Positions 55,163-62,954 of a stretch of 64,000 nt of DNA are shown piece by piece. How positions within the stretch are numbered: the first letter of the stretch is position 1; every line of letters begins with the position of its first letter. Location of the stretch: the NCBI GenBank assembly GCA_017620615.1, contig JAGAUW010000029.1, forward strand, positions 1 through 64,000. Direction: 5' to 3'. The DNA is from Clostridia bacterium (GTDB lineage: Bacteria > Bacillota > Clostridia > Monoglobales > Monoglobaceae). Made by a program: the position numbers and the translations under genes. A model generated the notes under the pieces. It ran no database searches. It saw only the letters and a program-made list of their open reading frames with translations, and was not told the DNA's origin.

Positions 55163-55204
55163 TGCTTACAATGTTTTTAAAAACAGTGTCATCTCTTCTG
55201 ACGT

Positions 55205-55350
55205 AACTGTTTAGCGCCGGACTGCAAATTTTTTGCAGTGACGAGGTAAGAAGTTATCGAAGTCTTCGGCGGATACTTCTTCGGCAAAATCCTTGTCGTG
55301 AGGATGTATACAAACAAACAAAAGTGCATCCGTTGGATTTTTTAAAGACC
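55205..55350 (+). ncRNA. glmS-type self-cleaving ribozyme/riboswitch
   Basis: The conserved blocks appear in order. AGCGCC at 55213-55218 is the cleavage site (between A55213 and G55214). P1 is ACTGCAAA/TTTGCAGT (55221-55239), followed by GACGAGG. P2.1 is AAGAAGT/ACTTCTT (55248-55254 with 55275-55281). TTATCGA precedes TTCGGCGGAT, which pairs back to GCGCC. P3 is CGGC/GTCG, then TGAGGAT and a P4-like GGATG/CATCC. The Bacillus subtilis glmS ribozyme has the same string of motifs. It is activated by glucosamine-6-phosphate, and the cleaved mRNA is unstable in Bacillus. The next gene is glmM, not glmS. Confidence 0.88.
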
Positions 55351-55380: not shown

Positions 55381-56727
55381 ATGGGAAAATATTTTGGAAC
55401 TGACGGATTTCGTGGCGAAGCCAATGTAAACCTGACAGTTGAACACGCTTTTAAGATAGGAAGATACCTTGGATGGTATTATGGCAAAGAGCACAAGTGC
55501 AAGGTTGTAATTGGAAAGGATACAAGACGGTCAAGCTATATGTTTGAATATGCTCTGGCGGCGGGACTTACAGCAAGTGGCGCTGATGCGTATCTTCTGC
55601 ACGTTACCACAACACCGTCGGTATCTTACGTTGTGAGAACTGAGGATTTTGATTGCGGCATAATGATTTCAGCCAGCCACAATCCGTATCACGACAACGG
55701 CATAAAGCTTATAAACAACCGCGGTGAAAAAATGTCAGAGTCAATCATTGCGGATATTGAGGCATATATTGATGGTGTTATCGGTGAAATTCCCTTGGCT
55801 GTTGGTGAAGATATAGGAAGAACAATCGATTATGTTGCAGGCAGAAATCGCTACACGGGATATATAATTTCTCTTGCAAGAAATTCTTACAAGGGTATTA
55901 AAATCGGTCTCGACTGTTCAAACGGAAGCACATGGATGCTGGCAAAAAACATTTTTGATACCCTTGGTGCAGAAACATATGTCATAGGAAATCAGCCTAA
56001 TGGCTTCAATATAAATTATGATTGTGGTTCTACTCATATTGAAAATCTTTGTAAATTGGTGAAGGACAACGGCCTTGATATTGGCTTTGCTTTTGACGGA
56101 GACGCTGACAGATGCCTTGCGGTGGATGAAAAGGGAAATGTTTTGACAGGCGACCACATTATGTATTTTTGCGGAAAGTACATGAAAGCGAATGGCACTC
56201 TCAAAAAGAACACTGTTGTTACCACGGTTATGTCAAACCTTGGACTTTACAAGGCACTTGATGCCGAGGGCATTGATTATGTAAAGACAGATGTAGGCGA
56301 CAAATATGTTTATGAATCCATTCAGACCAATGATTATTGTTTTGGCGGTGAGGAATCGGGACATATAATTTTCTCAAAATATGCATCAACAGGTGACGGA
56401 CTTATTACTGCCCTTCAGATAATGGAAGTATTGATTGAGAGCAAGCTTTCTGCATCAAAGCTTTGTGAGGGATTTGAAAGATTTCCTCAGCTTACACGAA
56501 ATGTACGGGTTGAAAACAAGGATGCGGCACTTTGTGATGAGGATGTGAAACGGGCTGTAAAAGAGGTGGAGGAAAGTCTTGGCGATGACGGAAGAATTCT
56601 TTTCAGAAAAAGCGGCACAGAACCTCTCATTCGTATTATGGTTGAGGCTAAGGGTGAAAGCATATGTGAGGCTATGGCTCAAAAAGTGTATGATATTATG
56701 AAAGAAAAAGGTTATGCACTTAACTAA
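55381..56727 (+). CDS. glmM: Phosphoglucosamine mutase GlmM
   Basis: 448 aa. Converts GlcN-6-P to GlcN-1-P for UDP-GlcNAc and cell-wall synthesis. YFGTDGFRGEAN start; active-site phosphoserine loop ISASHNPYHDNGIKL; metal loop FDGDADRCL; sugar-binding GGEESGHIIF (GlmM-type Glu-Glu/Gln-Ser-Gly-His); TDVGDKYVYESI; and phosphate-binding FRKSGTEPLIRIMVE. The ATG follows TTGGAGG. The glmS-type ribozyme fills its leader. No glmS follows: ribU comes next behind its own promoter and FMN riboswitch. Confidence 0.92.
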   Translation: MGKYFGTDGFRGEANVNLTVEHAFKIGRYLGWYYGKEHKCKVVIGKDTRRSSYMFEYALAAGLTASGADAYLLHVTTTPSVSYVVRTEDFDCGIMISASHNPYHDNGIKLINNRGEKMSESIIADIEAYIDGVIGEIPLAVGEDIGRTIDYVAGRNRYTGYIISLARNSYKGIKIGLDCSNGSTWMLAKNIFDTLGAETYVIGNQPNGFNINYDCGSTHIENLCKLVKDNGLDIGFAFDGDADRCLAVDEKGNVLTGDHIMYFCGKYMKANGTLKKNTVVTTVMSNLGLYKALDAEGIDYVKTDVGDKYVYESIQTNDYCFGGEESGHIIFSKYASTGDGLITALQIMEVLIESKLSASKLCEGFERFPQLTRNVRVENKDAALCDEDVKRAVKEVEESLGDDGRILFRKSGTEPLIRIMVEAKGESICEAMAQKVYDIMKEKGYALN

Positions 56728-56773: not shown

Positions 56774-56790
56774 CTAAAAAAGTAAATATT

Positions 56791-56900
56791 TTCTTCGGGG
56801 CAGGGCGAAATTCCCTACCGGCGGTGACAGTCCGCGAGCCACTTGTGGTTGATTTGGTGAAATTCCAAAACCGACAGTAAAGTCTGGTTGAGAGAAGAAA
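56791..56900 (+). ncRNA. FMN riboswitch (RFN element)
   Basis: Classic core: TTCTTCGGGGCAGGG opening, CCCTACCGGCGGTGACAGTC block, GCGAGCC, GACAGTAAAGTCTGG and closing GAGAGAAGAA. The closing stem pairs TTCTTC with GAAGAA. A terminator follows (56931-56961), so FMN should switch off riboflavin uptake by ending transcription. Confidence 0.96.
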
Positions 56901-56930
56901 GCTTTATAATAATTTGTTATAGAGTATCTG

Positions 56931-57634: not shown

Positions 57635-57644
57635 CAAAATGTTA

Positions 57645-57830
57645 GATAGAGGTGCGTTATGTCATCATTAGGCAGATTTTCATCGCTTTGCCAAAGCGGA
57701 TTTGCTGAAAGGGGCAGGCGCCGAAGACGGTTCGTGGCAAAGGACTGGTCTGGCAGTTGGGAATAATATCCCAAATGTTGTCGCACAAGTGCGGAGAGCT
57801 ATCATATCATATTTGTTAATGGTTTTATAT
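57645..57830 (+). ncRNA. Lysine riboswitch (L-box)
   Basis: GATAGAGGTGCG near the 5' end, GGGGCAGGCGCCGAAG in the core, TGGTCTGGCAGTTGGGAATAA in the next arm, and TTGTCGCACAAGTGCGGAGAGCTATC as the closing strand. Gene context (dapA, lysA) agrees. The 3' AGCTATCAT is repeated in the following terminator, so the two can compete for ATGATAG. Confidence 0.93.
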
Positions 57831-58827: not shown

Positions 58828-60126
58828 ATGATTTGTGAAAATCTTGAAATCAACCAGAGGGGAAACCTGACCTTTGCCGGTCGGGACACGGTGGAGCTTG
58901 CAAAGAAGTATCAGACGCCGCTTTTCTTGATGGATGAAGAACGTATACGGAAAAACTGCAGAACATACGTTGATGCAATGAAAAAATATTTTGGCGAAGA
59001 CGCTCATCCGCTTTATGCCAGCAAGGCAGCATCCTTCAAGGCTGTTTATAAAATAGCAATGGAAGAGGGTATGGGCGTTGACGTGGTTTCCTGCGGTGAG
59101 ATTTATACAGCAAAAAGTGTAGGCTTCCCCATGGAAAAGGCATACTTCCACGGCAACAACAAGACTGATTTCGATATAAAATATGCCATAGAAAACGGCA
59201 TTGGTTATTTTGTGGCGGACAGCCGTGAAGAAATTGATGTTATCGACTGTATTTCCGGGGAAATGAATGTTTGTCAAAACATAATTATCCGCATAACGCC
59301 CGGCATTGACCCGCATACCTATGATGCGGTGGCAACAGGCAAGGTTGACTCGAAGTTTGGCTTTGCAATCGAAACGGGTGCAGCAGAATGTATTGTGAAA
59401 TATGCTCTTTCAAAAAAGAACATAAAGCTTTGCGGTTTCCATTGTCACGTGGGTTCTCAGGTTTTTGACTCGGATGTGTATTTCAAGACTGCTGATATTA
59501 TGCTAAGGTTTATTGCGGATATGAAAGCAAAGTTTGGTTACGAGGCAGAAATTCTTAACCTTGGCGGCGGCTATGGAGTGAGATATGTTGAATCAGACCC
59601 CGTGATTGACATTGAAGAAAATATCGCTCAGGTTGCAAAGATGGTGAAAGAAAAATGCAGTGAGCTCAGAATAGATGTTCCTGCAATCCGTATGGAGCCT
59701 GGTCGTTCAATCGTTGCAGACAGCGGACTCACTCTTTATACTGTGGGAAGTGTAAAGGTTATTCCTGAATATAAGAACTATGTTTCAATTGATGGCGGGA
59801 TGGCAGACAACCCAAGGTTTGCTCTTTATGGCTCGGAATATACCGTGGTGACAGCAAACAAGATGAACGAGGAATGTGACTTTTCTTGCTCTGTTGTGGG
59901 CAGATGCTGTGAATGTGGCGACATAATTCAGGAAAATGTCAGCTTGCCGTCAAGCGTGAAACGTGGCGATACTATCGCGGTTATGACAACGGGTGCATAC
60001 AACTATTCAATGGCGTCAAATTATAACAGGCTTCAAAGACCGCCGATTGTGATGCTCACAAAAACGGGGGAATACACCGCGGTGGAACGTGAAAGCTTAG
60101 ATGACATAATAAAAAACGATTTATAA
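58828..60126 (+). CDS. lysA: Diaminopimelate decarboxylase
   Basis: 432 aa, PLP enzyme for the last lysine step. PLYASKAASFKAVYKIA holds the PLP Lys; GFHCHVGSQVFD, ILNLGGGYGVRY, RMEPGRSIVADSG (GEPGR-type) and VGRCCECGDIIQENV with the active-site Cys follow. It lies 23 nt after dapA under the same lysine riboswitch. Confidence 0.96.
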   Translation: MICENLEINQRGNLTFAGRDTVELAKKYQTPLFLMDEERIRKNCRTYVDAMKKYFGEDAHPLYASKAASFKAVYKIAMEEGMGVDVVSCGEIYTAKSVGFPMEKAYFHGNNKTDFDIKYAIENGIGYFVADSREEIDVIDCISGEMNVCQNIIIRITPGIDPHTYDAVATGKVDSKFGFAIETGAAECIVKYALSKKNIKLCGFHCHVGSQVFDSDVYFKTADIMLRFIADMKAKFGYEAEILNLGGGYGVRYVESDPVIDIEENIAQVAKMVKEKCSELRIDVPAIRMEPGRSIVADSGLTLYTVGSVKVIPEYKNYVSIDGGMADNPRFALYGSEYTVVTANKMNEECDFSCSVVGRCCECGDIIQENVSLPSSVKRGDTIAVMTTGAYNYSMASNYNRLQRPPIVMLTKTGEYTAVERESLDDIIKNDL

Positions 60127-60130
60127 AAAT

Positions 60131-60160
60131 AAAGCTCTCTTTTCGGAGAGCTTTTTCTTT
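60131..60160 (+). terminator. dapA-lysA terminator
   Basis: AAGCTCTC and GAGAGCTT pair around a 5-6-nt loop, then TTTCTTTT. Confidence 0.88.
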
Positions 60161-60171
60161 TGAATAAATAC

Positions 60172-60200
60172 TTTACAAAAAGGAAAAAATATGGTAATAT
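60172..60200 (+). promoter_or_regulatory. Promoter of structured RNA 1
   Basis: TTTACA (60172-60177), 17-nt spacer, extended -10 TGG-TAATAT (60195-60200). The predicted start is close to G60207. The -35 and spacer share CTTTACAAAAAGGAAAAA with the promoter of RNA 2. Confidence 0.75.
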
Positions 60201-60206
60201 AATATT

Positions 60207-60360
60207 GCGACTTAGTTTAATATTTTTTCAATGATAGTACGCATTTTTATTTTGATAAAAATGCATGCTCTATTTTGCTTACTGTCATTGGAAGTATAAA
60301 CTGAGTCGCGTCAGGGAGCCATGCATTTTTTGTGCGTGGCTTCGGCTACGCACTTTTTTT
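60207..60360 (+). ncRNA. Structured RNA 1 of a tandem pair, class unknown
   Basis: About 152 nt, non-coding. Terminal stem of 13 bp: GCGACTTAGTTTA (60207-60219) with TAAACTGAGTCGC (60297-60309). Middle stem of 11 bp: CAATGATAGTA (60229-60239) with TACTGTCATTG (60280-60290). Apical hairpin of 10 bp: GCATTTTTAT/ATAAAAATGC (60241-60264). A 15-nt bulge lies on the 3' side of the apical hairpin. It ends with the terminator GTGCGTGGC-TTCG-GCTACGCAC and T7. AGCCATGCA (60317-60325) could instead pair with TGCGTGGCT of the terminator. The rod shape recalls 6S RNA, but I cannot confirm that. Confidence 0.7.
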
Positions 60361-60375
60361 ATTTTGTATAAACAC

Positions 60376-60404
60376 TTTACAAAAAGGAAAAAGTATGTTA
60401 TGCT
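60376..60404 (+). promoter_or_regulatory. Promoter of structured RNA 2
   Basis: TTTACA (60376-60381), 17-nt spacer, extended -10 TGT-TATGCT (60399-60404). The predicted start is near A60411. Confidence 0.75.
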
Positions 60405-60410
60405 GAATAT

Positions 60411-60568
60411 ACACCACACAAGTTAATAATGCAATTTGCAGGGGAAGTGTTTTTATTTTGATAAAAACGCATTCTCTTAATTTGACTTTCTCTTGTGGAT
60501 TGCAAACTTGTGTGGTGCAAGCGGAGCTATGCGTTTTTTGTGCGTGGCTCCGGCTGCGCACTTTTTTA
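60411..60568 (+). ncRNA. Structured RNA 2 of a tandem pair, class unknown
   Basis: Paralogue of RNA 1. Terminal stem of 13 bp, perfect: CACCACACAAGTT (60412-60424) with AACTTGTGTGGTG (60505-60517), sequence unlike that of RNA 1. Next stem TGCAAT/ATTGCA. The apical hairpin GTGTTTTTAT-TTTG-ATAAAAACGC (60447-60470) has the same loop as RNA 1 with a changed base pair near its base. The terminator GTGCGTGGC-TCCG-GCTGCGCAC and T6 are nearly the same as in RNA 1. GGAGCTATGC upstream of it can pair with GCGTGGCTCC as an alternative. No ORF of note lies inside. Confidence 0.7.
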
Positions 60569-60610
60569 TTTGCATAAATGTGTAGCTCTGGTTGTGACCA
60601 AACAAACTGG

Positions 60611-60638
60611 AAAACCTCACCCATTTGGGTGAGGTTTT
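60611..60638. terminator. Bidirectional terminator
   Basis: AAAACCTCACCC-ATTT-GGGTGAGGTTTT, perfect 12-bp stem with T-runs on both strands; it ends the minus-strand synthetase gene. Confidence 0.88.
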
Positions 60639-60650
60639 CGCTTTAAGTGA

Positions 60651-62954
60651 TTATTTATTTGCTTTTTCCATATCCTTGTTGCGGATTTCAACACGGCGGA
60701 CTTTTCCGCTGATTGTCTTGGGAAGTTCATTCACAAATTCCACAATTCTTGGATATTTATATGGTGCTGTGTGTGTCTTTACGTATTCCTGAATTTCTTT
60801 TTTCAGTTCGTCAGTGCCGACAGTGTTTTTGGTGAGAACAATGGTAGCCTTGACAATCTGTCCACGGACCTCGTCAGGAACAGCGGTGATTGCACATTCC
60901 AGAACATAGGGAAGCTCCATAATAACACTTTCAATTTCAAAAGGTCCGATGCGGTAGCCTGAAGATTTGATAACGTCATCAATACGTCCCACATACCAAA
61001 GATAACCGTCTTCGTCCATTGTTGCCTGGTCACCTGTGTGATAAAAATCATCGTGCCAAACATCGTGAGTTTTCTCATCGTCAAGATAGTAGCCGATAAA
61101 TAGTCCGCAGGGTGCACCGTCTTTTGTACGGATACAGATTTCACCGGTGTCACCGGTCTTGCATTCGTTTCCGTCAGGGTCAAGGATAACCACATCATAA
61201 AGGGGTGAGGGTTTTCCCATTGAACCGATTTTTGGCTTTGAGCCAACAAAGTTTGCAATTGAAAGGGTTGTCTCGGTCTGACCAAAACCTTCCATAATAC
61301 TGAGTCCTGTTGCCTTTTTGAATTGGTTATAAACCTCGGGGTTCAGTGCCTCGCCTGCTGTTGTTGCATATTCAATAGAAGAAAGGTCATATTTTGACAA
61401 ATCTTCCTTGATGAAAAATCTGTACATAGTAGGCGGTGCGCAGAATGTAGTGATATTGTATTTCTTGAAAAGAGGAAGAATATCATCAGGATGGAATCTG
61501 TCGAAGTCATAAGTGAACACACCTGCTTCGCAGAGCCATTGTCCATAAAGCTTGCCCCAGAGTGCCTTACCCCAACCAGTGTCAGAAATGGTGAAATGAA
61601 GTCCGTCAGGGTTTACATTGTGCCAGAACTTTGCTGTGGGATAGTGACCGAGAGCATACTTATATGAATGTGTAGCAATTCTTGGATAGCCCGTAGTACC
61701 TGAGGTGAAGAGCATAAGCATCGGGTCATCGCCGCAGGGAGAATTTTCTTTGCGGTCAAAATGGGTGCTGAAACGCTCCATTTCTTCGTTAAAATTGTAC
61801 CAGCCGTCTTTTTTGCCGCCAACAAGAATTTTGAGCATACCCGGGAAGTCTTGAGCTGCTTTTTCGGCTTCTGTGGAAACATCGCCGTCATTTGTGCAGA
61901 CGATAGCCTTTACGCCTGCTGCTTTATAGCGGTATTCAAAGTCGTGTTCAACCAGTTGGTTTGTTGCAGGGATTGCTATTGCACCGATTTTGTGAAGAGC
62001 CAGCATACAGAACCAGAACTCAAAATGACGTTTTAAAACAAGCATAACTGTGTCGCCGCGTTTGATGCCCAAAGACTCAAAATAATTCGCGGTCTTTGCA
62101 GAATACTTTTTCATGTCGTTAAAACTAAATCTGCGTTCTGTCTTGTCATTTCCAACCCACATCATAGCAGTCTTGTCAGGGGTTTTCTTTGCAATTTCAT
62201 CAACGCAGTCAAAGGCAAAGTTGAATTTGTCATCGTTTTTAAATGTGATTCCATTAAACACCCCTTTCTCGTCAAGGGTTGTATCAATGAAATCATCAGC
62301 CACAGTCCTCAATGAAGATTTTGCGGATTTTTCAACCTTTTCAGAAATGTAAGGTGCCTCAGGGTATTCCTCACTGAAATGGCCGTCCTGAGGATTGAGA
62401 ACAACCGCGTGGAATTCGCAACCGCCCTCTGATACTGCAATCATACCGTGAGGAATAATACTGTTATAGAAAATGGAGTCACCCTCGTTTAAAATGTCAA
62501 CGTGATTTCCAACCTGAACTTTGAGAGAGCCTTTCACAATAACATCAAATTCCTGACCATTGTGTGAACTCAGCTTTATGGGAGCATTTTGTTCTTCCTC
62601 AAGATAAGGGAATTTAACAAGGAATGGCTCTGCCAGTTTGCTCTTGAATTTGGGAGCAAGGTTGTTGTACACAAAACCTTGTTTCTTTATGATTTTGAGA
62701 CCTTCACCCTTTCTGGTAATAGCGAAGGAGGTAAGAGTTGAACTTGTACCCTCCAAAATGTCAACCACTTCAACATTACATGCCTTTGCACATTTGTAGA
62801 TAAAGGTAAAGCTGAAGTCTGTTTCGCCTTCTTCAAGGATTTTGTAATCCTGAGTTGATACGCCGGTGAGCTTTGCAAGCTCTTCCTGAGAATAGCCCTT
62901 TGCCTCACGCAAATCTTTGATTCTTCCGGCAACTTCTTTCAAATTGTAATCCAT
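60651..62954 (-). CDS. HTH-cupin-acyl-CoA synthetase fusion (AMP-forming)
   Basis: 767 aa in three parts. Residues about 8-62: XRE helix-turn-helix (RIKDLREAKGYSQEELAKLTGV). About 105-190: cupin (SSHNGQEFDVIVKGSLKVQVGN, IFYNSIIPHGM). About 225-765: AMP-forming acyl-CoA synthetase of the medium-chain type, with P-loop MLMLFTSGTTGYPR, EGFGQTETT, YHTGDQATMDEDGYLWYVGR and the catalytic Lys end PKTISGKVRR. It should activate a carboxylic acid to its CoA ester and may also bind DNA. A T-box lies in its leader. The ATG follows GGGGAG. The substrate is not evident; a branched-chain or aromatic acid is an inference from the T-box. Confidence 0.88.
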   Translation of the reverse strand: MDYNLKEVAGRIKDLREAKGYSQEELAKLTGVSTQDYKILEEGETDFSFTFIYKCAKACNVEVVDILEGTSSTLTSFAITRKGEGLKIIKKQGFVYNNLAPKFKSKLAEPFLVKFPYLEEEQNAPIKLSSHNGQEFDVIVKGSLKVQVGNHVDILNEGDSIFYNSIIPHGMIAVSEGGCEFHAVVLNPQDGHFSEEYPEAPYISEKVEKSAKSSLRTVADDFIDTTLDEKGVFNGITFKNDDKFNFAFDCVDEIAKKTPDKTAMMWVGNDKTERRFSFNDMKKYSAKTANYFESLGIKRGDTVMLVLKRHFEFWFCMLALHKIGAIAIPATNQLVEHDFEYRYKAAGVKAIVCTNDGDVSTEAEKAAQDFPGMLKILVGGKKDGWYNFNEEMERFSTHFDRKENSPCGDDPMLMLFTSGTTGYPRIATHSYKYALGHYPTAKFWHNVNPDGLHFTISDTGWGKALWGKLYGQWLCEAGVFTYDFDRFHPDDILPLFKKYNITTFCAPPTMYRFFIKEDLSKYDLSSIEYATTAGEALNPEVYNQFKKATGLSIMEGFGQTETTLSIANFVGSKPKIGSMGKPSPLYDVVILDPDGNECKTGDTGEICIRTKDGAPCGLFIGYYLDDEKTHDVWHDDFYHTGDQATMDEDGYLWYVGRIDDVIKSSGYRIGPFEIESVIMELPYVLECAITAVPDEVRGQIVKATIVLTKNTVGTDELKKEIQEYVKTHTAPYKYPRIVEFVNELPKTISGKVRRVEIRNKDMEKANK

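Follow-up and report, generated by a model that had tools for sequence, protein, structure and literature searches.

Transcriptional riboswitches and attenuators, such as the ZTP, fluoride and lysine systems, are leader RNAs that lie between a promoter and a start codon, and in which an upstream structured domain and mutually exclusive helices decide whether an intrinsic terminator forms. Full-length covariation models of terminator/antiterminator riboswitches are available (PMC13273304). Other structured RNAs have been described from gut bacteria on the basis of comparative genomics, including the Gut-1 and Clostridiales-1 RNAs (RF01706 and RF01699; PMC2864571), and a large metagenome catalogue of human microbiomes contains further candidates (PMC8040213). 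6S RNA (RF00013) combines a long irregular hairpin with a sigma-A promoter.

Here we analysed a 64,000-nucleotide stretch of a Clostridia genome (the window, to which all unlabelled positions refer) that carries two tandem structured RNAs, and the family to which they belong. Family members resemble the riboswitches and attenuators in their location between promoter and start codon (the two copies in the window are not so placed) and in their architecture. They differ in having linked competitions (P1 with P5, P3 with P4, P4 with an antiterminator hairpin (AT), and AT with the intrinsic terminator (T)), with comparative support for each helix, and in their heterogeneous accessory genes, their orphan and tandem copies with promoters of their own, and the lack of a known aptamer or ligand. 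Unlike Gut-1 and Clostridiales-1 RNAs, family units have no match in Rfam. Comparison across members shows two predicted folds, fold A (P1, P2, P3 and AT) and fold B (P5, P4 and T), which are both conserved, covarying and mutually exclusive. We conclude, with a probability of about 0.72, that the family is a multicopy RNA switch that works by conditional transcription termination. All structures reported here are comparative or predicted.

Tandem units in the window

Both units lie on the plus strand and each consists of a sigma-A promoter, a 155-nt structured RNA and an intrinsic terminator; the promoters, stems and terminators of the original prediction were all found in place. The promoter of unit 1 (60172–60200) comprises TTTACA (60172–60177), a 17-nt spacer and TAATAT (60195–60200), and that of unit 2 (60376–60404) comprises TTTACA (60376–60381), a 17-nt spacer and TATGCT (60399–60404), with a TG upstream of the −10 hexamer in both. 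The hairpin TTTTTATTTTGATAAAAA, with an identical TTTTGA apex, is common to the two units and the terminator GTGCGTGGCTYCGGCTRCGCAC-T6/7 is near-identical between them; the terminal stems are 12–13 bp long in both and unrelated in sequence. Folding energies are far below those of dinucleotide shuffles, at −64.9 versus −31.0 ± 3.4 for unit 1 (z = −9.9) and −68.8 versus −36.9 ± 4.0 for unit 2 (z = −8.0), and none of 200 shuffles reached the native value in either case.

In unit 1, P1 pairs 60207–60218 with 60298–60309 (12 bp), P2 pairs 60229–60239 with 60280–60290 and the P3 hairpin pairs 60241–60249 with 60256–60264. The terminator (60332–60360) pairs 60332–60340 with 60345–60353, followed by T7. 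Three pairings go beyond the original prediction: P4, an alternative to both P3 and AT (60255–60271 with 60315–60331); P5, an alternative to P1 (60301–60304 with 60311–60314); and AT itself (60315–60326 with 60332–60343). Unit 2 has the same set, with P1 at 60413–60424 and 60505–60516, P2 at about 60430–60446 and 60486–60504 and P3 at 60447–60455 and 60462–60470 (the last two from the predicted fold), P4 at about 60461–60477 and 60523–60539 (duplex energy −15.2 kcal/mol), P5 formed by CTTG (60507–60510) with CAAG (60518–60521), AT at 60522–60533 and 60541–60552, and a terminator (60540–60567) that pairs 60540–60548 with 60553–60561, then T6. The minimum-free-energy (MFE) structure of both full-length units contains the antiterminator hairpin in place of the terminator and corresponds to fold A. 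Their AT hairpins are unusually strong, at −20.3 and −18.4 kcal/mol against a mean of −12.3 kcal/mol. When the 5′ part was removed in silico, unit 1 folded exactly into P4, P5 and T; in unit 2, AT still won.

Upstream of the twins, a lysA-like gene ends at 60126 and has its own terminator. The nearest long open reading frame (ORF) on the 3′ side (60651–62954) is on the minus strand and convergent, which bears out the original claim that no plus-strand coding gene follows; the twins are orphan copies with no gene behind them. In three related genomes (G001, G007 and G004) a unit is kept before the same convergent gene, with stems that have changed and still pair, and the orphan unit is therefore maintained in the genus of the twins. 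Any short RNAs that the twins yield might function in trans or serve as decoys.

The convergent ORF encodes a 767-amino-acid product that reads as an N-terminus with helix–turn–helix (HTH) and cupin-like parts fused to an acyl-CoA synthetase, a fusion that looks unusual. We noted three other RNAs in the window on the plus strand. A glmS-type ribozyme match (67.4 bits, 55202–55341) is directly upstream of an ORF (55381–56727) that reads as phosphoglucosamine mutase (GlmM) and not as GlmS, which would be an unusual placement. The FMN riboswitch (56787–56903), ahead of a small RibU-like membrane protein, and the lysine riboswitch (57639–57809), ahead of a dapA/lysA-like pair, are ordinary.

Distribution of the family

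A blastn comparison of the window with 60 related genomes gave matches in 39. For wider searches we built a covariance model (R1) from 32 units that contains only P1, P2 and the terminator, without P4 or AT. R1 recovered ten strong copies in this 1.26-Mb genome and, across the Clostridia sample, copies in 70 of 292 genomes and 48 of 184 genera, with at least 9 copies per genome in some carriers. All named carriers are Clostridia of the gut or rumen that have not been cultured, and almost all of their genomes were assembled from metagenomes. In an even phylum sample of 348 genomes, which included element-free Clostridia, no copy was found in any other genome.

Rfam 15 gave no match at the units of 20 diverse family loci, and for the window units nothing exceeded a gathering threshold, the sub-gathering matches being chance-like, in line with the original alternative of a new class. 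A Gut-1 RNA (RF01706) in another genome (L131, 1906–1977, minus strand) adjoins a family unit at a distance of about 240 nt. We did not find a described equivalent in the literature, in which the supplementary alignments of the human-microbiome catalogue (PMC8040213) were not searchable; its candidates could overlap the family, which could be listed there under a number. Two exact-pattern scans of viral contigs did not find the family pattern, and a search of a plasmid collection did not find the family. Two records labelled as phage have a leader-type copy; one of them contains genes of bacterial type, for a YicC-like protein and a ClpB-like C-terminus, and the second has an integrase. In the collections searched, the family is not a plasmid or viral-contig feature.

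Genomic context

On the basis of mechanical ORF calls, 145 of 204 distinct copies have a co-directional gene downstream, with the start codon no more than 60 nt past the terminator in 118 and within 300 nt in 27 more. The distance from terminator to start codon has a sharp mode at 15–23 nt, and a Shine–Dalgarno sequence is usually present. Another 16 of the 204 copies are followed by a second unit in tandem, and 32 (about a sixth) face a convergent gene, with AT, P4 and T equally stable in this group. The strand of the upstream gene is random (52:53 in the first set of 110 units). In most of the 204 members a −10-like hexamer keeps the same distance from P1, to within 1 nt, and the family promoter, at this fixed distance, has a TTG-like −35 element and the extended −10 consensus TGTGNTATAAT; transcripts should therefore begin at P1. 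Comparison thus shows a fixed predicted promoter and a position upstream of genes. Given that 145 of the 204 members precede a co-directional gene, the family appears to be mainly a cis-regulatory 5′ leader. The idea that the units are stand-alone small RNAs therefore applies to the two copies in the window and not to the family as a whole.

The genes behind family copies do not point to one ligand. Among 113 downstream proteins, scanned without a background set, were 26 BspA-type leucine-rich-repeat surface proteins, 8 dockerin proteins, 6 with a copper-amine-oxidase-N domain and 2 EcoRI-type methylases, together with AbrB/MazE-like and HTH proteins. Small ORFs (MKDYKKxYLxLxN...) recur directly behind units in several genomes (loci L043, L019, L020, L037 and L042); two of the downstream proteins in the scan match Pfam DUF6809. 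At two loci (L045 and L081) a single gene is preceded by an array of three units in a row, every one of which has a terminator.

Comparative support for the two folds

The additional pairings use strands that also serve in other helices. In P4, the 3′ arm of the hairpin, UAAAAAUGCAUGCUC, is complementary to GGAGC-AUGC-AUUUUU just ahead of the terminator; in AT, GGAGCYAUGC pairs with the 5′ arm of the terminator; and in P5, the 3′ strand of P1 pairs with a linker that copies the P1 5′ strand. The P3 hairpin was predicted in 184 of 207 homologues. Covariance-model alignments were used because RNAalifold on a raw MAFFT alignment gave just P1 and part of T. Our first unit finder relied on P4 complementarity, and P4 was re-tested on 105 units from R1, which is blind to it; as the seeds had also been picked by P4 complementarity, the model owes part of its P4 strand conservation, but not the covariation, to that choice.

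In these 105 units, 95.7% of P4 cells were paired, with 82 double changes versus 22.7 ± 3.6 after shuffling (0 of 500 shuffles), and 91.2% of AT cells, with 46 double changes versus 18.3 (0 of 500). The corresponding values for P5 were 94.4% and 24 versus 5.9 (0 of 500). P1, P2 and T together reached 96.7% paired cells (T alone, 97.8%) and 461 double changes versus 101, in an alignment that was fitted to these helices. We also applied a phylogeny-aware null, a home-made version of the idea behind R-scape, in which substitutions were reshuffled along the tree of 203 units. Significant pairs numbered 10 of 13 in P1, 4 of 15 in P2 (the four inner ones), 2 of 4 in P5, 7 of 10 in T, 2 of 15 in P4, where most others are nearly invariant, and 1 of 12 in AT. 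Twelve pairs exceeded the null maximum, all of them within P1, T or P4, and P4 pair 56–136 was significant in the all-against-all test. The covariation of P1, P2 and T thus supports the original proposal of selection on a folded RNA.

Predicted pairing is stronger between the two strands of one unit than between strands taken from different units, by 3.3 kcal/mol for P4 and by 2.8 kcal/mol for AT. G–U pairs exceed A–C mismatches in every helix, by about 4- to 60-fold (376:6 in T and 336:25 in P4), an excess that indicates selection on the plus-strand RNA. The MFE structures of full-length units are near balance, with AT in 116 and T in 91 of 207, and P1 forms in nearly all. Once the first 52 nt or so are removed, the MFE structure becomes P4 with T in 165 of 207, and 129 of these also form P5; the 3′ two thirds thus seem to be built to terminate, and the 5′ arm to override this. 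Unpaired positions show only moderate conservation in the family alignment. One A–U pair (model positions 8 and 109, the fourth P1 position from the G–C end) is nearly invariant while its neighbours vary freely, which suggests that it may be recognized by sequence.

Proposed mechanism

In the switch that we propose, the cassette would consist of a sigma-A promoter, an RNA of about 155–190 nt that begins with P1, and an intrinsic terminator. In fold A, about 50 nt at the 5′ end would pair with the middle of the RNA as P1 and P2, with P3 at the tip; P3 would hide the strand that forms P4, so that GGAGC-ATGC could form AT with the terminator's 5′ arm and RNA polymerase could read through. In fold B, the 5′ arm would be displaced, P5 would take the place of P1, and the 3′ arm of P3 would move to P4, which would capture GGAGC-ATGC-TTTTT and release the terminator, so that the RNA stops. 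The competing pairs are accordingly P1 and P5, P3 and P4, AT and P4, and AT and T. The emerging GGAGC could find a toehold in an exposed GCUCU beside P3, a feature that points to co-transcriptional strand displacement.

The assignment of folds A and B to the on and off states is inferred from these pairings, as is a signal on the 5′ arm or P3 that would decide between read-through and termination. The trigger could be a small molecule, a protein or an RNA able to sequester the 5′ arm. Because P1 and P2 are highly stable and the earliest helices to form, and a nested fold B would lose both, a trigger or a pseudoknotted form would be needed. Inspection of the first 50 nt for a leader peptide revealed no ribosome-binding site or conserved start. 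It is possible, and we offer it tentatively, that the family is a new, widespread class of bistable switch through which a single common signal acts on scattered surface-adhesin, antitoxin and other accessory genes as one regulon, and which orphans tune in trans by serving as decoys or by donating strands.

Alternative explanations

The retention of all helices in orphan copies such as the window twins, the conservation of a paired unit before the same convergent gene in related genomes and the tandem arrangement of 16 of 204 copies would all fit a family of trans-acting small RNAs, of which the terminated 155-nt RNA is the product, with tandem multiplication as in other multicopy small RNAs, and for which proximity to genes is incidental. 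We regard this as unlikely for the family, given the 118 copies that lie 15–60 nt ahead of a start codon with a mode at 15–23 nt, the conservation of an antiterminator that a terminated small RNA would not need, and the occurrence of Hfq in just 2 of 15 carriers. The original prediction also raised 6S RNA paralogues, which would bind RNA polymerase by imitating an open promoter, and the long irregular hairpin, similar length and sigma-A promoter do recall 6S RNA. This reading is almost certainly wrong and we reject 6S membership: RF00013 has no match at E ≤ 10 over 60100–60660, this genome encodes a canonical 6S RNA elsewhere (63.8 bits) and all 15 carriers have exactly one, whereas the family matches it in neither sequence nor structure, has at least 9 copies per genome in some carriers, occupies leader positions and has a conserved competition between antiterminator and terminator that is foreign to 6S RNA.

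Many dispersed copies with variable stems, ahead of accessory genes such as those for antitoxins, an EcoRI-type methylase and surface proteins, might instead be mobile or recombining DNA (a MITE, REP or attC-like folded site) that carries a promoter and spreads with these genes. The G–U excess in all helices places selection at the RNA level and makes a DNA-level hairpin element very unlikely; furthermore, the spacing of promoter, RNA and start codon is fixed, and we noticed no matching transposase neighbourhood. It is also highly improbable that the family is a protein-dependent antitermination leader that uses a known factor of the LicT/SacY type, LoaP or ANTAR, even though such leaders have a competing antiterminator and terminator in common with it. 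The CAT_RBD domain is present in 0 of 15 carriers, which rules out a LicT-type antiterminator as the trigger; LoaP has no match above the cut-off among carriers, and ANTAR is present in 8 of 15 and missing in 7. Hfq, LoaP, CAT_RBD and ANTAR were accordingly rejected as universal partners. An unknown protein is a possible antitermination factor. Conditional termination by two competing folds remains our preferred reading.

Implications

About one in four of the Clostridia genomes sampled carry the family, frequently as multiple copies, and it is not in Rfam; it would rank among the larger uncatalogued classes of bacterial RNA. It would reveal a shared layer of control over surface proteins in bacteria that are common in rumen and gut. 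With two complete alternative folds, it is an unusually clear candidate, among natural RNAs, for a switch that works by strand displacement, and its orphan copies raise the question of switches that act in trans.
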